DNA of 50,404 nt from Bacteroidota bacterium (GTDB taxonomy: Bacteria; Bacteroidota; Bacteroidia; Bacteroidales; F082), in assembly GCA_002686705.1 (NCBI GenBank), contig NYYH01000013.1:14175-64578 (forward strand), given 5' to 3'. Every line of letters starts with the position of its first letter. The first letter of the stretch is position 1. Positions 4,557-31,913 of this stretch are shown piece after piece. A model generated the notes under the pieces. It did not search any database and was not told where the DNA came from. It saw only the letters and a list, made by a program, of their open reading frames with translations. Both the position numbers and the translations under genes were made by a program.

Positions 4557-5910
4557 ATTTATTATATTTTATCATCCTAAGCATAGCTCGAATCGTATTC
4601 CATGATAGTATAACTATAACTCCCGGATTTAAGAACCTCAGGAAAATATCTTTATAAGGAGCACTACCGGTAAATGTATCCCAAAGGATAGAGCTCAATT
4701 TTCTTACATGTCTTTCTTTTAGTTGCTCATTAACAACCATCCTGAGCATTGCGCTTTTCAATACCGGCGATGCCTGGATAACAGTTGTTACCATGAAAAT
4801 AAACTTGCCAATAGTGTTATCTATTTCCAGATTATTACATGTTGGTTGAAAATGTTTTTTAAAGTTTTCTTTGGATATTCCTTGAAATATTGCAGTATTA
4901 GCGGCAGCCTTAGCTGTTATATAAGCAGCTCCGATTCCATTCTTATATAATTTAGATGCGGAAGAATCACCAATGAGCACAACCCGGTCAGAATAGGCAG
5001 ATTTAGCACTTCCAACATTAATATAAGGAAAACATCGACATGTTATGTTACTATCAAGATCGAAGTCTTTAGGAAAACACTTTCTAACTGGTTTGGAATC
5101 AAGAAATTTTCCTGCTATTTCTTTATCAATATTTGAACCTAACAATACAAGCGTAACATATTTAGATTTTGGTATTAAGGCTCCAAATTTAATATTGGGT
5201 AAACTAAGAAGAAAAACATGCATAGAATTGCCAAAATACTTATCAATTTGTGCTTCATCCATATGAATCTCACAAATAAAAGTGCACGTTGTTTTTGGAG
5301 GAACAAAAGAGGGACTAATTTTACTAAATAATTCAAAAGTTTTTTTATTAAGGCCTACAGCCCCAACAACAAGATCATATTTTTTTTCAAAGTTATTTTT
5401 AGTTTTAATTATAACTCCATTCTCATTTCTTTCCATGTTTAGTACCCTATCATGGATAATATTTGCCCCCTTCAATGCATATAATTCCATAAGGTGATCA
5501 TCGAAACTTTTGTGATCACCTAGGCTACATCCTTTTGGTCCCAGTCCTCGAAACATAGAGGCAATTCTTTGTTCATCAACAGGGGCTCCAATTTCAGTGA
5601 AGCCCTGCTCAAGATGAAGCGTATAGGTTTCTATCCCTTTCCTGATAACATCCGCAGGTAGAACAATTCCGTCAGCAGATAACATTTGGATTAATGATTC
5701 GGAAACAATCCCCCCGCAATTATTGCATCCGGCAGGCCCTGCGCAGTTGAAATCCTTCGCCTCAATGACATCAATATTAATATTCAAACCGTATCTCTCT
5801 GCAAAATTCAGAGCAAAATATGTAAAAAAACTACCTAATGGACCACCTCCAATAACGGCTATATTAGAGCCCTCTTTTAGTACAAGTTTATTTGCAGCAT
5901 TATCTTCCAC
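4546..5910 (-). CDS. FAD-dependent oxidoreductase, geranylgeranyl-reductase-like (copy 1)
   Basis: A 454-residue flavoprotein. It has an N-terminal Rossmann FAD site NIAVIGGGPLGSFF (glycines at 21-26), Asp/Glu at the end of the second strand (DVIEAKDF), a GAVGL motif near residue 190, and the second FAD motif VVLIGDSSASKLYKNGIGAA. This is the order seen in the PHBH/geranylgeranyl-reductase superfamily. Three cysteines (56, 62 and 65; C-x5-C-x2-CGG) follow the FAD-binding strand and are conserved in the neighbouring paralogue. The C-terminus carries a hydrophobic stretch (GVIVILSWNTIRAML), suggesting membrane contact. The substrate is unknown; reduction of a lipid or isoprenoid double bond is a family-based guess. 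It overlaps the CNB gene by 11 bp. Confidence 0.75.
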   Translation of the reverse strand: MEDNAANKLVLKEGSNIAVIGGGPLGSFFTYFALNFAERYGLNINIDVIEAKDFNCAGPAGCNNCGGIVSESLIQMLSADGIVLPADVIRKGIETYTLHLEQGFTEIGAPVDEQRIASMFRGLGPKGCSLGDHKSFDDHLMELYALKGANIIHDRVLNMERNENGVIIKTKNNFEKKYDLVVGAVGLNKKTFELFSKISPSFVPPKTTCTFICEIHMDEAQIDKYFGNSMHVFLLSLPNIKFGALIPKSKYVTLVLLGSNIDKEIAGKFLDSKPVRKCFPKDFDLDSNITCRCFPYINVGSAKSAYSDRVVLIGDSSASKLYKNGIGAAYITAKAAANTAIFQGISKENFKKHFQPTCNNLEIDNTIGKFIFMVTTVIQASPVLKSAMLRMVVNEQLKERHVRKLSSILWDTFTGSAPYKDIFLRFLNPGVIVILSWNTIRAMLRMIKYNKYEI

Positions 5911-22318: not shown

Positions 22319-23935
22319 CTATTTAATAATCAACTTACTACTTACGTCAAGTTCCAGTATTTGTACGCTATAAGCACCTGGGACCAAATCCGTTTTTATT
22401 TCAATTCGATTTTGAGGATCGGCAACTTGTTTTTCAACTACTAATCTACCATCAGCAGAGAAGATTTTAACTGTAATGCTTTTGTGTTGCTCATTTAAAT
22501 TGATCTCAAACGTTCCATCAGATGGATTAGGATATATACTCAAACCTCCGCTATTAAATTCGTTCACAAAATCGCTTTCATAATCCAGCCGTGCAATAAA
22601 CATATCAAATGCCCCCCAGCCCGTAATTTCATGATCATCAAAATTAGCGTCTTCCTGAAAGTTCCCACAAATGTACAGCGACTGAGGGTTTCCGGGTGAG
22701 ATACCATAACCATAGTCCAGATAATTACCACCGGCTCGTTTTGCCCACACAACCTCACCTGTCCAGTTATATTTTGCAATAAAAATATCTGATTTGCCAA
22801 CGCTTTCTAGAACTTTATCACCAAACTCCGCTTCATTGCTAAAAAATCCCGTCGTGAATGTGTTTCCATTTGCATCTGTAAACATATCCCTACCCTGGTC
22901 CATTCCATAACCACCAGCTTTACGAATCCATTTAAAAGCACCTTCATGATTATACCTCACTAAATAAGCATCAAAGTCATATTGTCCTCCCGTGGACTCA
23001 ACTGTTTCTTCACTAAAAGTAAGCCTTCCCGAAAAAGTGCCATTGCCATAAACATATCCTTCATTGTCCATACTGATACCAAATCCGCGGGCATAATCGT
23101 TAGCCCCACCAGTTCCTCTGCGCACCCATAAGAAGTTGCCACCTCCATCCATTTTGGCAATATAGGTACTCAAAAATGAGTTGCTCATTATATCGTGTTC
23201 TCCAAAGAAAGCCTTACCATTAAAAACACCGGTAAAATAAGTTGCCCCTTCATCATTACAGATTATACCATAAGCCCTGTCTTCGCCCTCACCACCAGCT
23301 TTTTTAACCCAATGAAAATTGCCCGTATTAGAATAGTTAGCAATAAAAATATCTCTGTTACCTTCGCTGGTTATTGTAGTTTCTTCTCCAAAGTGAGCGG
23401 TATACCTAAAGCTCCCCGAAACAATTACATCGTGTTCAAAATTTGTGGTTAACCTATTTCCGTAATCATCACCTTCACCACCAGCACTTCTGGCCCATAT
23501 AACATGTCCTTCGCTGCTATATCTTGCAACAAACATGTCATAACTTCCATGGCTTTCAAGGATTATGTCATCAAAATGAATTGCTTCTGCAAACCACCCT
23601 GTTATTATGGGAAAATCATCCCAGTCGAGGGTAATACCAGCTGCAGAATTATTTGCTGGTCCATAGGCTTTTACTGCCCAAAGCGCCTCGCCATTATCAT
23701 TATACTTTGCCAGGAAAACATCTTGATCGCCAGTGCTAGTAAGTACTATATCACCAAAATGTGCGCTTCCTGAAAACCATCCTGTTACATAACTATTTCC
23801 ATCATTGTCAGTAGCTATTGCATATGCTTGGTCAGAGCCTCCTCCTCCGGCCGATCTAGCCCAATCAAATGTTTGACTGTTACTCATGCTTACAAAAAAG
23901 AAAATTGCAAGGGTTAGTGTAATAAGTTTCTTCAT
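22319..23935 (-). CDS. Secreted SBBP-type repeat protein with T9SS type A sorting domain
   Basis: A 538-residue protein. A signal peptide (KKLITLTLAIFFFVSMSNSQ) is followed by about eight tandem repeats of roughly 50-55 residues with the core FIAKYN..G...W.KRAGG and an HFG-type turn, for example DMFVARYSSEGHVIWARSAG. This is the SBBP (beta-propeller) repeat found in secreted Bacteroidota proteins. The last 75 residues form a T9SS sorting domain: LSIYPNPSDGTFEINLNE, then VKIFSADGRLV and a final SSKLIIK. The mature protein should be exported through the Por/Sor apparatus and anchored or released at the cell surface. The function is not known. It is divergent from the AbgT transporter gene. Confidence 0.9.
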   Translation of the reverse strand: MKKLITLTLAIFFFVSMSNSQTFDWARSAGGGGSDQAYAIATDNDGNSYVTGWFSGSAHFGDIVLTSTGDQDVFLAKYNDNGEALWAVKAYGPANNSAAGITLDWDDFPIITGWFAEAIHFDDIILESHGSYDMFVARYSSEGHVIWARSAGGEGDDYGNRLTTNFEHDVIVSGSFRYTAHFGEETTITSEGNRDIFIANYSNTGNFHWVKKAGGEGEDRAYGIICNDEGATYFTGVFNGKAFFGEHDIMSNSFLSTYIAKMDGGGNFLWVRRGTGGANDYARGFGISMDNEGYVYGNGTFSGRLTFSEETVESTGGQYDFDAYLVRYNHEGAFKWIRKAGGYGMDQGRDMFTDANGNTFTTGFFSNEAEFGDKVLESVGKSDIFIAKYNWTGEVVWAKRAGGNYLDYGYGISPGNPQSLYICGNFQEDANFDDHEITGWGAFDMFIARLDYESDFVNEFNSGGLSIYPNPSDGTFEINLNEQHKSITVKIFSADGRLVVEKQVADPQNRIEIKTDLVPGAYSVQILELDVSSKLIIK

Positions 23936-24097: not shown

Positions 24098-24114
24098 CAC
24101 TTTATTTTTTGTTT

Positions 24115-25653
24115 ATGGATGAATTAAAAAAGAGAACAGGTCTTCTACAGAAGATGTTGAATTGGACCGAAAGAATTGGTAATGCATTGCCACATCCAGG
24201 TACTCTTTTCGCATTATTTGCATTAGGAACACTGGTATTGTCCGCTATTGGATATGCTTTAGGTTGGGAAGTTATTCATCCTGGCACAAAAGAAGTTGTA
24301 AAAACCGTTAATCTATTGTCACACGATGGTATTCACCGAATTCTATTGGATATGGTGGATAATTTTACAGGCTTTGCTCCTTTAGGGATTGTAATGGTAG
24401 CGATGCTTGGGATTGGTATAGCAGAACAGAGTGGATTGATCAGCGCAATAATTCGGTTGTTGGTTTTGAATGCTCACAGACATCTGTTGACATTTATAAT
24501 TGTTCTTGCAGGTATATTATCTAATGTTGCTTCTGATGTTGGATATGTATTGTTGATTCCACTTGCTGGGGTAATATTTGTTGCGGTTGGCAGAAATCCT
24601 ATTGCTGGAATGGCTGCAGCTTTTGCGGGCGTTTCAGGAGGGTTTAGTGCAAATCTCGTACTTGGAACCGTTGATCCTTTGTTGGCTGGATTATCAACTG
24701 AAGCAGCCCAAATCCTAGACCCCGGCTATGAAGTAAATCCAACTGCCAATTATTATTTTATGGTGGCTTCTACATTTGTAATAGCATTTGCCGGCACATT
24801 TGTTACTGAAAAAATTGTAGAACCGAGACTAGGAAAATACACTGGCACGATTCCGGAAAGTGAAAGTTCATTTGGTAAACTTACCAAGGTGGAGAAAAAA
24901 GGTTTGTGGATGGCTCTACTTACCCTTATAATTATTGTAGGCATTTCGCTTATAGGCATAATTCCTGTAGATGGTTTTTTGAGAGGGGGTGATGGAACAA
25001 TACTTAATTCACCATTGATAAGAGGTGTGGTTGCAATGTTATTTGTTACGGCAAGTGCAATGGGTATTGCCTATGGTGTTACTACGCATGCTTTTAAAAA
25101 TGATTCTGATGTTATGAACGGCATGGCATCGTCGATGAAAACACTTGCAACTTATTTTGTTCTTGTATTTTTTGCAGCTCAGTTTGTAGCTTATTTCAAA
25201 TGGAGTAATCTAGGAATTATCTTAGCTGTTGAAGGAGCGAATCTCCTAATGTCAGCAAACATTGGCCTCATACCTTTGATGATCCTTTTCGTATTGCTTG
25301 CAGCCTCCATAAATATGCTTATGGGAAGTGCATCTGCAAAGTGGGCTATACTCGCTCCAATTTTTATTCCTATGTTTATGATAATGGGTTACTCTCCTGA
25401 GTTATCTCAGGTTGTGTATAGAATTGGTGATAGTGTTACAAATGTAATTTCTCCAATGATGAGTTTCTTTGCTCTAATTATTGCTTTTGTTCAGAAATAC
25501 GAACCAAAAGCAGGTATTGGAACTATTATTGCTACAATGTTACCATATTCAATTGCTTTCTTATTTGTGTGGATAATACTTTTAGTTGCATGGCTATTAT
25601 TGGGTATTCCGCTTGGCCCTGATGCAGGGATTTACTATACATTACCTAAATAG
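24115..25653 (+). CDS. AbgT-family transporter
   Basis: A 512-residue transporter starting at ATG 24115; a TTG two codons upstream is less likely. It shows the AbgT family pattern: a short cytoplasmic start with LNWTERIGNALPHPGTLFAL, the hairpin region NVASDVGYVLLIPLAGVIFV, and AAFAGVSGGFSANLVLGTVD. The second half has SINMLMGSASAKWAILAPIF and DSVTNVISPMMSFFALI. Family members take up p-aminobenzoyl-glutamate or export antimetabolites such as sulfonamides (MtrF/YdaH), probably driven by protons. Length and about twelve membrane segments are normal. It is convergent with the ABC-2 permease at the end of the large export locus. Confidence 0.94.
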   Translation: MDELKKRTGLLQKMLNWTERIGNALPHPGTLFALFALGTLVLSAIGYALGWEVIHPGTKEVVKTVNLLSHDGIHRILLDMVDNFTGFAPLGIVMVAMLGIGIAEQSGLISAIIRLLVLNAHRHLLTFIIVLAGILSNVASDVGYVLLIPLAGVIFVAVGRNPIAGMAAAFAGVSGGFSANLVLGTVDPLLAGLSTEAAQILDPGYEVNPTANYYFMVASTFVIAFAGTFVTEKIVEPRLGKYTGTIPESESSFGKLTKVEKKGLWMALLTLIIIVGISLIGIIPVDGFLRGGDGTILNSPLIRGVVAMLFVTASAMGIAYGVTTHAFKNDSDVMNGMASSMKTLATYFVLVFFAAQFVAYFKWSNLGIILAVEGANLLMSANIGLIPLMILFVLLAASINMLMGSASAKWAILAPIFIPMFMIMGYSPELSQVVYRIGDSVTNVISPMMSFFALIIAFVQKYEPKAGIGTIIATMLPYSIAFLFVWIILLVAWLLLGIPLGPDAGIYYTLPK

Positions 25654-26519: not shown

Positions 26520-29500
26520 TCACAATCCCACTTTTCCATTCTTCTTTAGCAAATACAAATAGGCATCTTCTAAATTAGCCTTGACTGATTGAGCTCCTTC
26601 AACAGGTGGCTCATCCGCCAAGCATCTAACTTTTATTATGTCCTTTTCGCGAATGTGATAAATAATTGTTAATCTGTTTCTTATTTTTTCAAATTCAGAA
26701 ACGGGCATATTAAGTGTCCAAATTTTACCTTTAGCAATATCTGCCATGTCAATAGGCTTGCCAAGATAAACAACTCCTCCTGTTTTCATTACGGCAACCC
26801 TGTTACATGAACTTGCTACATCTTCTATAATATGAGTTGAAAATATAACAATCCGTTCTTTGCTAAGCTCAACCAACAGGTTCCTGAATCGTATACGTTC
26901 TCTTGGATCCAATCCGGCGGTGGGCTCATCAACAACTAAAATTCGTGGTAGATGTAATAATATTTGAGCAATGCCTATACGTTGTTTCATGCCACCTGAA
27001 AATGAACCGATTTTTTCATCTTTATTTTCGTACATATGAACAGCTTTCAAAACGTATTCAACCCTGCTGTTTCTGTTATCTTTATCGTAGAGCTTTTTAA
27101 GAATGCCTATGTAATTAAGGAAATCCCATGCAGTCATGTTTTCGTACATTCCAAACTCCTGCGGAAGGTATCCGATAAGGCCTTGAAGTTCTTCACGTTT
27201 CTCTTTCAGATCTATCCCATTTATTGTGATTTGTCCGTAACTGGGTTCCAATATTCCACAAATTACTCGCATTAAAGTAGACTTACCTGCACCATTTGGA
27301 CCCAATAAACCAAACATTCCATTTTCAATATGGAATCTAACACCGGTTACTGCTTTAAATGGTGTCTTTTTCTTTCCAAGCAAGGGTATCACTAAAACAA
27401 ATCTGTAGAATATTTTTCTAATACCCTTGAATAATCCTTTTACCCGATTTACATCAACTTTATTTTTGCGCAAGTTAGTAGCTGTATTTTTTATTGCTAC
27501 TGCAAGATACCAGATAAGACCCATAGGAATAACTAGTCCGGATAATGAATAAATATCATAGAAACTATACATTGCAACAGCAGGAAATCCCCAATAAAAA
27601 ACAGCAAATACAAATCGGTTAATTATTCTTAACCACCTGCTAATATGTTTCGAAGAAAAATAAGTAACTATCGGAGACCAAAAAACCAGAACAAGAATGT
27701 AAAAAACGATCTGTAATATAAAATACCAAAATCCACTTTCGAGATGGTAATAAATAAAGTAATATGAGAATGCTATTACAGGTAGTTGCCATAAAAGTTG
27801 AGCAAATATATTTGTAGTAGTTGTAGAATTTTGAATACCAAGCCGCTTTCTAATATTTAATCCTGATTTCCATTCACGCATAAAACGATTATCCCAGTCG
27901 TAAATTTTTACAATATTGCGTATCTCTATTCGCAGAGGTTGATTATCACCAATGAGCTTTTCGTTTGCTTTTCTCAGACTTGTTTTTATGAAGTATATTG
28001 ATGCAGGAACAGTTATTATTAATAAGAGAAAATAGATTAACTGCCATACCTTACTGTCAACCTCCATATAAATAATGTATGTGCCAACAATCCAAAGTAT
28101 AGCTTGTATTATCTTAATTAAAATATTCTGCTCCTTCATCCAGCTAATGGACGATTTAAGGCCTGAATAAAATGTTGGAATGAAAACAAGTGTTAGTATT
28201 GTACTTAAGGCTAAACCTCCAATAACAGTTATTGCAAAAGGAACACCTATTTGAGTAACATATTCAGCCTTTCCCATTGCCAATGGTATTAATGCAATAA
28301 TTGTGGTAATTGCTGTAATCAGAATTGGTCTTACTCTTGCCAATCCTGCTGTCATTAAAGCTCTTGATTCACGGTAACCCCGTTTCTGAAGTATCCGTGT
28401 ATAATCGATCATAATTATGCCATTATTAACTACAATTCCAAGCAATATTAAGAAACCGGTAAACACATTGGCATTCATTATTGAAGTACCGGTAAGTATA
28501 AGCAATATCAGTGAACCAATTGCTGCAAGTGGAATTGAAAACATCATTACAATCGGCATTGTAAACGATTCGAAAACAGAAGCAAGGATCATGTATATTA
28601 ACAATACAGCCATTAACAATAAAAAGCCAAATTCTCCAAGTGCACTATCCTCGTGTATAACTTCAACAATCTCATCTGAACTCATGCTAATACTGGCAAT
28701 AAGATCATCCACTTCTGCTCTAGAAGCTTCAAGAATATCCTTCTCATCATTAACTTCATCCAAGAATTCATAAACAATCTCAATTCGCTTTTCCTGATTA
28801 GTACGCTTGATTGTTGAGAGTCCCGTGGTGAAGTTAAAATTGCTGATATTTTGTAGTTCAAATACTGAGCCACTAGCACCCTTTACATTGAGTGTCTTCA
28901 GGTCGTGAATATTTCTGCTAGTGATATTTTCGTCAATATTTGGCATTTTGATTTGAATATCATAGTCCTGATTTCCTTGTTTAAAGAATACACCACTTGA
29001 AAATTCAGGCTGAAATGAATTAAGTTCTGATAATACAGATGTTACCGGAATATCGTATAATGACATGAGTTGTTTGTCGAAAATTAACTGTACTTCAGGT
29101 CGTTTAGCAGGCTGCCTAATATTGATGTTTTTGATGGAAGAAAGCTGTCCCAGAAAATACTCAATGTCCTGTGCTTTATTAAGCATTTGATCAAAGTCCT
29201 GTCCTTTGACAATAACTTTTTCCTGCTGTAAACCGATTCCCAATATTCTTGCCATGCCGTCATCATCATCAAAACCGCCACTTCCAAATCTTCTACCAGT
29301 TGCCGGTGGATCCCAGTCAAATCTTGCTTGTTTGAAATCTTCCAAACTTTCAATTATATCATCTTTAATACCAGGAACATCCATGTTTCTAATATCCCTG
29401 TAATCATCTGACAGAGTAACAGTTATTACAGCCTCCTCCTCATAAATCTGGCTTAGGATATCTTTCTTTTCCTTTAGACTGTCGAGTTTATTCTCTACAT

Positions 29501-31232
29501 CAGCAATTAACAGATCGGTATTTTCCAAAGTTGTTCCACTCGGCATTGTGACATAAAGTTTGAGATCCTTTATTTCCGGTTCTTCAGAAGAAAAAGTACT
29601 TATGCCCAAGCTTATTAGTAGTGCTATGAAAAATACACCCAGCGCTCCTGGAATTACTCTGGCGGGATTACGCATACTCGTTTTCAGAAAGACCAGATAT
29701 ATTTGAATTAACCTGTTGTGATGTGATATACGTTGGAAAATAGCTGTATTTGAAACTTTCTTCAAACTAAGGAAAACATAAGTTATCATTGGAATAAAAA
29801 GCAGTGCAACTGCAAGTGAAACCAATAGAGTTGAAATTATTGAGACCCCAATATGTTTACCCAACAATCCGATAAAGAAATTTGTTGAAAATACAAAAGG
29901 AAGAAATACAGTAACCGTAGTTAAAGTGGCAGCGATTATTGAACGTGCAACTTCTTTTGTTCCTTGAATAACCGCTGTGGCTGTGTCAACATTTTTCGCC
30001 GCCAAACGATATATATTTTCAAGTACTACAACACTATTATCTAACAACATTCCTATAGCGAGTGCCATACCAAGAAGAGTTAAGCTGTTGATAGTAACAT
30101 CGTATGCATAAAAGAAGTTAAATGCTGTAAATACAGAAATAGGGATTGCCAATGCTACAGCAATTACAAGTTTGAGATTTCTCAGAAAAACCCAAAGGAT
30201 AAATATTGCTAACAAACCTCCAATAAGAGCTAGCTGCATGATTAGATCGATGTTTTTCTCCATTATGTCAGCAGAATTATTTTGAATAACTAATTCAATA
30301 TCCTTTCTGCCAAACTCTTCGTTAATCAGGGCAATTTGTTTCTTAACAATTTCAGCGAGTTCTATTTGGTTTACCTGTGAATCACGGGTTAGCTGAATAG
30401 TTACTGATTCTTTACCATTCACCCTGCTATAAGAATCCTGTTCTTTTAACCCAAAGTGGATTGTTGCAATATCTTTTAGTTTGATGTTGTCGGCTTCATT
30501 AACAACAACTTCATATAGTTCGTTAAGGTTCACAAATTCCGAAACAACATTTACCGAATGTAACTGGTTATTTTCAGTGACTTTTCCAACAAAGGTTCTT
30601 GCAAGACTGTTATTATTTAAGGCTGTACGAACATTAGCAGGTGTAATATTATAACTATTGCAAACATCTTCTTTTAATATTATGTCGACAGATTTTTCTC
30701 TGCCTCCAAAAATCTCAGCATTTGAAATACCGTTAATATTTTTAAACTTGCTAATTATTTCTCGTTCAACAACATTTCTTACCCGATCAACGCCACCACT
30801 ACCACGTGCCTGAATCGTCATAAACATATTGTTAAGCATCTCCAAATCGAATTTGAAAACTTGTACCATAAATTCTTCAGGTAAGTTTTTTTTGACCCCA
30901 TCGATTTTTTCAATTAGCTTCAAATAAGCAAACTTTATGTTTGTTGATTTATCATAAGAAATTCTAATTGTACCCTGCCGTTGCCCAGCTGATGATTCAA
31001 TCTTTTCAACACCTTTAAGTGTGCCAATAGCCCCTTCGATTGGGATAATGGCTTGCTTCTCCATGTATAGAGGATCAACTTCTATTATGCTTCCAACATT
31101 TACAAAAAGGAAAGGAATTTGCGCGTTTGGATAGAGCTCAACTGAAAGTTGCTTATATGAAAACCAGCCCAGCATAGTAAGTCCTGTAAAGAGCATGGTA
31201 ATAAGTACTTTCCTTTTGATTAAGAAGCTCAT
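26520..31232 (-). CDS. RND efflux permease fused to ABC ATPase
   Basis: A single uninterrupted frame of 1570 residues. Residues 1 to about 1025 are a complete AcrB-class RND permease: N-terminal helix, two porter/docking regions and twelve helices, with the proton-relay segments GMLLDNSVVVLENIY (about 390-405) and GIVVNNGIIMIDYT (about 933-945). Residues about 1030-1270 add roughly six more hydrophobic segments of unassigned type. Residues about 1280-1570 are a complete ABC ATPase: Walker A GLLGPNGAGKST (about 1307-1318), signature FSGGMKQR (about 1410), Walker B ILVVDEPTAGLDP (about 1430), H-loop IFSTHI, and a C-terminal extension. The ATPase resembles the free ATPase at 40983-41867. It would couple to the small ABC-2 permease next door and to the MFP/TolC genes upstream. 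RND proteins normally end near residue 1040, so the fusion is exceptional. Confidence 0.93.
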   Translation of the reverse strand: MSFLIKRKVLITMLFTGLTMLGWFSYKQLSVELYPNAQIPFLFVNVGSIIEVDPLYMEKQAIIPIEGAIGTLKGVEKIESSAGQRQGTIRISYDKSTNIKFAYLKLIEKIDGVKKNLPEEFMVQVFKFDLEMLNNMFMTIQARGSGGVDRVRNVVEREIISKFKNINGISNAEIFGGREKSVDIILKEDVCNSYNITPANVRTALNNNSLARTFVGKVTENNQLHSVNVVSEFVNLNELYEVVVNEADNIKLKDIATIHFGLKEQDSYSRVNGKESVTIQLTRDSQVNQIELAEIVKKQIALINEEFGRKDIELVIQNNSADIMEKNIDLIMQLALIGGLLAIFILWVFLRNLKLVIAVALAIPISVFTAFNFFYAYDVTINSLTLLGMALAIGMLLDNSVVVLENIYRLAAKNVDTATAVIQGTKEVARSIIAATLTTVTVFLPFVFSTNFFIGLLGKHIGVSIISTLLVSLAVALLFIPMITYVFLSLKKVSNTAIFQRISHHNRLIQIYLVFLKTSMRNPARVIPGALGVFFIALLISLGISTFSSEEPEIKDLKLYVTMPSGTTLENTDLLIADVENKLDSLKEKKDILSQIYEEEAVITVTLSDDYRDIRNMDVPGIKDDIIESLEDFKQARFDWDPPATGRRFGSGGFDDDDGMARILGIGLQQEKVIVKGQDFDQMLNKAQDIEYFLGQLSSIKNINIRQPAKRPEVQLIFDKQLMSLYDIPVTSVLSELNSFQPEFSSGVFFKQGNQDYDIQIKMPNIDENITSRNIHDLKTLNVKGASGSVFELQNISNFNFTTGLSTIKRTNQEKRIEIVYEFLDEVNDEKDILEASRAEVDDLIASISMSSDEIVEVIHEDSALGEFGFLLLMAVLLIYMILASVFESFTMPIVMMFSIPLAAIGSLILLILTGTSIMNANVFTGFLILLGIVVNNGIIMIDYTRILQKRGYRESRALMTAGLARVRPILITAITTIIALIPLAMGKAEYVTQIGVPFAITVIGGLALSTILTLVFIPTFYSGLKSSISWMKEQNILIKIIQAILWIVGTYIIYMEVDSKVWQLIYFLLLIITVPASIYFIKTSLRKANEKLIGDNQPLRIEIRNIVKIYDWDNRFMREWKSGLNIRKRLGIQNSTTTTNIFAQLLWQLPVIAFSYYFIYYHLESGFWYFILQIVFYILVLVFWSPIVTYFSSKHISRWLRIINRFVFAVFYWGFPAVAMYSFYDIYSLSGLVIPMGLIWYLAVAIKNTATNLRKNKVDVNRVKGLFKGIRKIFYRFVLVIPLLGKKKTPFKAVTGVRFHIENGMFGLLGPNGAGKSTLMRVICGILEPSYGQITINGIDLKEKREELQGLIGYLPQEFGMYENMTAWDFLNYIGILKKLYDKDNRNSRVEYVLKAVHMYENKDEKIGSFSGGMKQRIGIAQILLHLPRILVVDEPTAGLDPRERIRFRNLLVELSKERIVIFSTHIIEDVASSCNRVAVMKTGGVVYLGKPIDMADIAKGKIWTLNMPVSEFEKIRNRLTIIYHIREKDIIKVRCLADEPPVEGAQSVKANLEDAYLYLLKKNGKVGL

Positions 31233-31377: not shown

Positions 31378-31913
31378 CTATAATTCATTTTTTCTTTGAT
31401 ACCCGATTTTCTTTTTTGGTAGTGGGTTTTCTTGCTTTTCTATGAGTTCATCAAGATAGCTGAATACCAGTTCAATATTTTTATCCTGATTTTCAAGTTT
31501 CTTTTTAATTTCTTCAATTTCAAGTTTTACATTTAAGTTATCAGTAAGAACTTGACGAACTTTTGTGAATATTCGCATAATTTGGATATTTACATTTATC
31601 GCTTGCTCACTATTTAAAACACTTGACAACATTAATACACCATGTTCAGTAAATACAAAAGGCAACTTTCTTCGTCCACCCCAACTTGATGTCGCAATTT
31701 GCGATTCAAGTTTGTAAATTCAGGCTCTGACAACTGGAACATAAAATCTTCAGGGAACCTTGAAAGATTGCGCTTCACCTGTTCATTTAATCTTCGAGTT
31801 TCAACTCCATAAAGCTCAGCCAAATCTCTGTCTATCATCACCTTTTGCTTCCTAATAAAATAAATTTTCGTTAATATTATTTCTTCCGGTATTGTAATTT
31901 TATTATCTGTCAT
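31378..31913 (-). pseudogene. ORF6N-domain protein, frameshifted
   Basis: The N-terminal piece from ATG 31913 has the ORF6N/KilA-N type start: [37 protein letters not shown] and [14 protein letters not shown]. The expected continuation, [20 protein letters not shown] then [16 protein letters not shown] and a C-terminal coiled coil ending PKKKIGYQRK, is in the neighbouring frame. Restoring one A in TTGAATCGC (about 31704-31708) joins both parts into a normal protein of about 178 residues. ORF6N domains come from phage/virus Bro-type DNA-binding proteins and are common in Bacteroidota as stand-alone genes. The ATG lies 2 bp after the RND stop codon, inside an efflux operon, which is an odd place for it. 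Confidence 0.85.

Follow-up and report, generated by a model that had tools for sequence, protein, structure and literature searches.

Loss of either the RND protein MmpL7 or the ABC exporter DrrABC stops lipid export, and the authors suppose a scaffold while stating that there is no direct evidence for one joint complex (PMC11539658). Different RND permeases can be combined in a single pump, MdtABC having two MdtB and one MdtC per pump (PMC4462101). In MacB, the ATPase is fused to its own permease (PMC8277102). Here we describe a bacterial locus in which an ABC ATPase is fused to an RND permease. Among the matches listed for the open-access literature (titles and abstract beginnings, with subscription journals mostly outside the scope), we found no description of an RND-ABC ATPase fusion, in agreement with the initial annotation of this DNA, which knew of no described family of this build.

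The window is the whole 50,404-nucleotide stretch of Bacteroidota DNA that was analysed. We observed that positions 26520-31232 on its minus strand form a single open frame of 1570 codons that starts with ATG and runs without interruption, as first annotated. Pfam places an AcrB-type RND permease (PF00873, E 4.7e-148) ahead of an ABC ATPase (PF00005, E 2.4e-30), the two domains that the initial annotation had expected from a domain search, in that order. The permease match is near full-length, spanning positions 3-1018 of the 1021-position profile with a score of 495 bits (cut-off 28). The ATPase contains Walker A (GPNGAGKST from residue 1311), the signature S-F-S-G-G-M-K-Q-R (at about residues 1410-1418), a Walker B stretch (ILVVDEP from residue 1431) and the H-loop (STH at residue 1465). 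Together with the Q-loop and the Walker B glutamate, all of these are invariant across 35 aligned homologues. These results confirm the full AcrB-class permease and the full ATPase, with Walker A, signature, Walker B and H-loop, that had been read from the letters alone.

The approximately 240 extra residues with hydrophobic segments that had been noted between the two domains correspond to residues ~1030-1290 and are modelled as six membrane helices. In the structure model (residues 1024-1296, input of 81 sequences), six long helices are accompanied by shorter ones, with a mean pLDDT of 85.8 and a pTM of 0.61. Mean numbers of lysine plus arginine per linker loop were 13.0, 3.4 and 12.1 for the predicted-inside loops versus 0.2, 0.3 and 1.0 for the outside loops, an assignment that presumes that the RND part ends on the cytosolic side. 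Since the K/R-rich loops are those that would be cytosolic if the RND part ends inside, the fused ATPase is predicted to face the cytosol. The linker gave no profile match to the operon's genes 2 and 7 or to M1-type permeases, and no confident match to PDB folds.

The best solved match of the fused RND is MdtB, and the best of the NCBIfam multidrug subfamilies is RND_permease_2, at 421.9 bits against a cut-off of 1250. We describe the proton relay in AcrB numbering (D407, D408, K940, R971, T978), the alignment being made to MdtB. All 81 fused RNDs retain the equivalents of D407, R971 and T978; D408 is replaced by N in 80 and by S in one, and K940 is replaced by N in all 81. Six further fusions have N (five) or T (one) at D408 and N at K940 in all six. 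Judged from the alignment, the relay of the fused RND is of a non-AcrB type, which does not exclude the protein from PF00873. Among 14 unfused control RNDs from six of the genomes (one RND per locus; L107 holds two), the same D-N / N-N pattern was present in three (L099, L107, L108) and the canonical D-D / K-N in four (L095, L096, L105, L106), with other patterns in seven. Because the pattern also occurs outside the fusion, it decides nothing on proton use, and we rejected the relay residues as proof that ATP replaces the proton drive.

A homologue search with residues 1030-1570 as the query scored 7996 candidates, of which 4495 at E 1e-20 may take in other ABC proteins. The best 120 of these 4495 are 63-100% identical over the query region; PF00873 and PF00005 are present in all 120, and 112 of the 120 are 1530-1600 aa long. 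Proteins of more than 1500 residues with both domains, which the initial annotation had proposed to look for, were therefore readily found. The observations that it had named as speaking against a fusion, a missed stop or frameshift or homologues that always occur as separate proteins, were not borne out, as the best 120 homologues all carry both domains fused. Several homologues have the NCBI product name 'efflux RND transporter permease subunit', and some have the JGI product name 'multidrug efflux pump subunit AcrB/ABC-type multidrug transport system ATPase subunit'. To call the protein the best candidate for a new system in this DNA was fair, with the reservation that the JGI product name already gives both of its halves, so that the protein as such has been seen before.

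To describe the spread of the family, we scanned species genomes and found 333 stretches that encode a relative; the best 80 of the 333 were analysed, and the remaining 253 need not all be fusions. The fusion frame exceeds 1400 aa in 80/80 of these best loci, isolates included. Bacteroidota carriers among the 80 include isolates of Prolixibacter, Marinifilum, Labilibaculum, Ancylomarina, Mangrovibacterium and Parabacteroides (Prolixibacter, Marinifilum, Labilibaculum and Parabacteroides being examples of cultured carriers), and further carrier records are titled Chlorobiota, Melioribacteraceae, KSB1, Calditrichaeota and Krumholzibacteriia. One locus, L062 (G008), has a record titled Actinomycetota and a genome that groups with the KSB1/Calditrichaeota phylum sample; the title may be wrong. 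With a linker profile, the fusion was detected in 6 of 395 genomes of a Bacteroidota sample (two of the six being previously known carriers), 40 of 295 from the order of Prolixibacter, 41 of 82 from the phylum holding the KSB1 and Calditrichaeota records and 13 of 80 from the phylum of the Krumholzibacteriia record. This amounts to 98 different carrier genomes, two genomes common to the Bacteroidota and Prolixibacter-order samples being counted once; six of the 98 (G001-G005, G008) had been recognised as carriers beforehand, which slightly raises the rates. In viral contigs, one stretch matched a pattern and encoded no relative. The fusion is a real gene family, common to many Bacteroidota and their relatives.

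The frame is at least 1489 aa long in 77 of the 98 carrier genomes and shorter in 21. Five short frames end at a contig end (L081, L082, L083, L085, L088), and eleven lie near a contig end or over two contigs, where truncation fits, as judged from coordinates alone. Four of the 98 genomes have in-gene breaks (L084, L086, L087, L089), and the remaining short frame (G792) is 1403 aa long. The ATPase part is a separate frame in two genomes. In L086, ~215 bases (5507-5723) with a 41-base inverted repeat, whose arms are 80% complementary, split the fusion between residues 1094 and 1096; this stretch lies in the first cytosolic loop of the linker and leaves a 483-aa frame with the remaining linker and the ATPase. 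In L087 (5931-10831, minus strand), which belongs to a distant branch, the fusion is divided over two frames of 1206 and 372 aa, of which the shorter contains the ATPase and has an ATG of its own; either a frameshift or a naturally unfused form could account for this. Because the ATPase part is separate in L086 and L087, the covalent link is perhaps not a strict requirement.

The fusion is the sixth of seven genes, in the order ABC ATPase, large ABC-2 permease, TolC, adaptor, RND, fusion and small ABC-2 permease (Table 1). The initial annotation had not remarked on this operon context.

Table 1 Genes of the export operon, with the fusion gene divided into its three parts; positions are those of the window.
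Feature	Position	Strand	Evidence
Gene 1: free ABC ATPase, 294 aa	40983..41867	-	PF00005 E 2.2e-31; Walker A, LSGGMKRR signature, Walker B and H-loop intact
Gene 2: large ABC-2 permease, 1112 aa	37639..40977	-	six-segment membrane part, M1-aminopeptidase fold without HExxH, C-terminal Golvesin domain
Gene 3: TolC-type outer-membrane channel, 510 aa	36122..37654	-	PF02321 E 2.3e-41
Gene 4: RND-type periplasmic adaptor, 349 aa	35061..36110	-	TIGR01730 RND_mfp 168.3 bits, cut-off 94.9
Gene 5: second, unfused RND permease, 1033 aa	31916..35017	-	PF00873 E 2.2e-203
Gene 6, part a: RND permease (residues 1-1029)	28146..31232	-	PF00873 residues 2-1023; best solved match MdtB, E 1.1e-61
Gene 6, part b: membrane linker (residues 1030-1290)	27363..28145	-	six helices in model; loop charges
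Gene 6, part c: ABC ATPase (residues 1291-1570 and stop)	26520..27362	-	PF00005 residues 1298-1439; best solved sequence matches ABCA-type lipid transporters
Gene 7: small ABC-2 permease, 234 aa	25680..26384	-	PF12698 E 2.7e-6 (below gathering score); six hydrophobic segments

This neighbourhood is conserved. Among the best 80 of the 333 loci, gene order is identical as far as each contig reaches. In the loci with enough contig, gene 5 was present in 68/68, gene 4 in 65/65, gene 3 in 62/62 and gene 2 in 58/58, so that the adaptor and TolC of a tripartite RND pump are encoded together with the permease wherever there is room. For L067, genes 2-5 were counted from reading the locus, where an antisense frame hides them from the gene walk. 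Gene 7 follows the fusion in all 71 loci with room (67 by gene walk, 4 by tblastn), and in 62 of these 71 its start overlaps the end of the fusion or is at most 100 bases past it; the gap in the window is 135 bases. Gene 1 was found by gene walk in 52 of the 80, a denominator that is not restricted to loci with room. Broken operon genes or an extra frame between them occur in L014, L047 and L059. Genes 2, 7 and 1 and the fused ATPase together encode two ABC-2 membrane domains and two ATPase domains, the gene set of an ABC-2 exporter, with Pfam ABC-2 scores for both permeases that fall below gathering in the window. The nearly constant seven-gene export operon suggests one export machine wired to two energy sources.

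Five further loci had room for the neighbours. Three of these (L091, L092, L094) keep the order from gene 2 to gene 7 as far as fetched. The distant relative L090 (3501-15656) has its TolC, large permease and ATPase genes on the strand opposite to the fusion and the small permease. In distant L093 (362-7281), enzyme genes (PALP, esterase, NAD-binding and others) directly precede the fusion, and the adaptor and TolC genes are not beside it; farther up the contig, a large permease (26%) lies ~22 kb and a 43% identical RND ~13 kb before the fusion.

Several other frames lie within or next to the operon. Between gene 5 and the fusion in the window (31378-31913, minus strand), there are two overlapping short frames in different phases, the first of which matches the ORF6N domain; this ORF6N gene appears disrupted. 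At the equivalent place, L001 has an ORF6N-like frame of 178 aa. At 22319-23935 (minus strand), the window encodes a protein that combines a beta-propeller repeat (PF06739) with a sorting tail for type IX secretion (PF18962), and at 24109-25653 (plus strand) an AbgT-family transporter that is convergent with the operon end.

The membrane part of gene 2 has six hydrophobic segments and, in the model, seven long helices. The zinc motif HExxH of M1 aminopeptidases (PF01433) was present in 0/58 of the gene 2 products. The alignment of gene 2 with P0121, an M1-type ABC-2 permease, covers residues 319-1199 of the latter (probability 99.6, E 1.9e-24), a region comprising the second membrane domain and the M1 domain. 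The best alignment of gene 7 is to the first P0121 membrane domain (14-273); it is weak, with a probability of 65.9 (E 5.7e-5) for 120 sequences and only 12 for four sequences. Because the two align to the first and second domains of P0121, genes 7 and 2 look like one M1-type permease cut in two. The gene 2 membrane domain matches the first P0121 domain nearly as well as the second (94.6 vs 97.2), and 12 of 52 gene 7 relatives match PF12698. One genome holds four ABC-2/M1-aminopeptidase permease systems (L102, L110, L111, L112), each with one ATPase gene. No title among the open-access literature matches listed names such a system.

Over 276 columns, the fused ATPase shares 39% identity with the gene 1 product. 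An ATPase tree with 33 rows places the 15 fused ATPases in one group (support 99/99) and groups the nine gene-1 rows weakly (79/78). The branches are very long and the root was placed only for drawing; the tree fits a single origin of the fusion, with the root not fixed. In NCBIfam, drrA is the top ATPase match of gene 1, and the fused ATPase matches GldA first and drrA second, all below the cut-offs.

We propose, giving it about even chances, that the operon encodes one trans-envelope export machine in which an ABC-2 exporter is tethered through the fusion to an RND-adaptor-TolC pump. Genes 7 and 2 would form the two membrane halves of one ABC-2 exporter, with gene 1 and the C-terminal domain of gene 6 as its two ATPases. 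The six-helix membrane anchor would tie one ATPase to the RND permease of gene 6, which may work with the second RND (gene 5), the adaptor (gene 4) and TolC (gene 3). Hydrolysis of ATP would drive a substrate, which may resemble a lipid or a peptide, across the inner membrane or out of it; on the periplasmic side, the tethered RND pump would then receive this substrate and hand it out through TolC. The substrate is weakly hinted at by the ABCA/Drr-like ATPases, which point to a lipid, and by the M1-like domain, which points to a peptide; this domain, without its catalytic motif, might bind or guide the substrate. A mixed trimer of genes 5 and 6, as in MdtBC, could carry a single tethered ATPase rather than three, which is possible because the operon has two RND genes. 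The initial annotation, which had an RND trimer carrying three ATPases, is unsupported as stated, since with the second RND permease a mixed trimer with fewer fusions is possible.

A single machine is favoured by the frame of at least 1489 aa in 77/98 carrier genomes, by the one group that the fused ATPases form in the tree (99/99), by neighbours that are present wherever the contig has room (best 80 of 333), by the resemblance of genes 7 and 2 to a divided M1-type permease, by the loop charges of the linker, by the analogy with MmpL7 and DrrABC and by the spread-out distant genome, which still has the large permease and the 43% identical RND on the contig of the fusion. Against it stand the weak match of gene 7 to the first membrane domain of P0121, the nearly equal fit of the gene 2 membrane domain to that domain, the two genomes with a separate ATPase frame, the linker without a recognisable fold match, the neighbourhood that is not universal (L090 is rearranged and L093 is preceded by unrelated enzymes) and the fused RND without two of the AcrB proton-relay residues. 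Still more tentatively, and on balance doubtful, ATP might load, and the proton gradient unload, one and the same substrate at a fixed ratio over both membranes, in a covalently joined ABC-2 and RND-TolC unit that would go back to a single origin and have persisted in Bacteroidota, Ignavibacteria/Chlorobiota, Calditrichota/KSB1 and Krumholzibacteriota.

The same genes could instead encode two homodimeric ABC-2 exporters, gene 1 with gene 2 and the fused ATPase with gene 7, either within one RND-adaptor-TolC complex or next to it; the fusion would then only keep the second exporter close and in fixed ratio. Each ATPase gene directly precedes a permease gene in the window, gene 7 is behind the fusion in 71/71 loci with room (best 80 of 333), the gene 2 membrane domain also matches the first domain of M1-type permeases, and the fused ATPases form a separate group (99/99) next to a weakly supported gene 1 group (79/78). 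However, the better fit of gene 7 is to the first membrane domain and that of gene 2 is to the second, as for one split permease, and we consider two homodimers rather unlikely. The initial annotation had suggested that the ATPase directly drives one RND trimer, with two energy sources acting on one pump. Such direct action, in which ATP drives or gates the trimer in addition to or in place of the proton drive, would agree with a covalent link kept in several phyla, with the complete motifs of the fused ATPase and with the non-AcrB relay residues in 81/81 fused RNDs. Unfused RNDs show the same relay pattern, however, and the ABC-2 permease behind the fusion (71/71 loci with room, best 80 of 333) is an ordinary partner for the ATPase. 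Because the operon also supplies another ATPase and two ABC-2 permeases, the fused domain would more naturally serve an ordinary two-plus-two ABC exporter; the claim is unsupported as stated, and we regard direct action on the RND as improbable.

The chance that the fused ATPase is regulatory or structural, for example in ATP-dependent pump assembly, and moves no substrate appears lower still. ABC ATPases such as FtsE do have a regulatory or structural role, but the ABC-2 permeases within the operon and the lipid transporters among the best solved ATPase matches speak against it here. That the fusion is an assembly or annotation artefact merging two genes is a negligible prospect: apart from the in-gene breaks in 4/98 genomes, the evidence goes the other way, with 112/120 best homologues at 1530-1600 aa with both domains and a frame of more than 1400 aa in 80/80 loci (best 80 of 333), isolates among these. 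The homologues rule out assembly error, chance or a missed stop as the source of the fusion.

In the single export machine that we favour, RND and ABC exporters would be physically tied together, by a link that several phyla have retained. As a stable connection, the fusion lends itself to testing whether ATP and proton energy act on one substrate and how a mixed RND trimer is built, and its operon also bears on the role of an aminopeptidase fold without catalytic motif beside a pump. As far as we have seen, its parts are of known kinds, and their covalent and operonic union is undescribed in the open-access literature searched.

The ABC-2 permease/M1-aminopeptidase systems of Bacteroidota resemble the locus in having an ATPase gene, one per system, beside a large permease with an M1 domain, of which gene 2 is a relative. 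They have about twelve hydrophobic segments in one chain, whereas here gene 2 has about half of these and gene 7 forms a chain of its own; the four that we inspected have an intact HExxH, which gene 2 has lost. Like the operon, MacAB-TolC has an ABC transporter working with an adaptor and TolC; to our knowledge, it has no RND part. MdtABC-TolC shares two different RND permeases, an adaptor and TolC, and no solved protein matches the fused RND better than MdtB. The relay residues of the fused RND differ from those of MdtB, and we know of no ATPase or ABC-2 permease in MdtABC. In mycobacterial PDIM lipid export, MmpL7 and DrrABC place an RND protein and an ABC exporter on one export route, and the SGGM-type signature reported there (PMC11539658) recurs here as FSGGM in the fused ATPase and LSGGM in gene 1. 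There the proteins are separate and their coupling is unproven, whereas here the two are one chain, accompanied by adaptor and TolC genes for a two-membrane envelope. By analogy, MmpL7 with DrrABC is the nearest functional parallel of this locus, with the difference that the link is covalent here.
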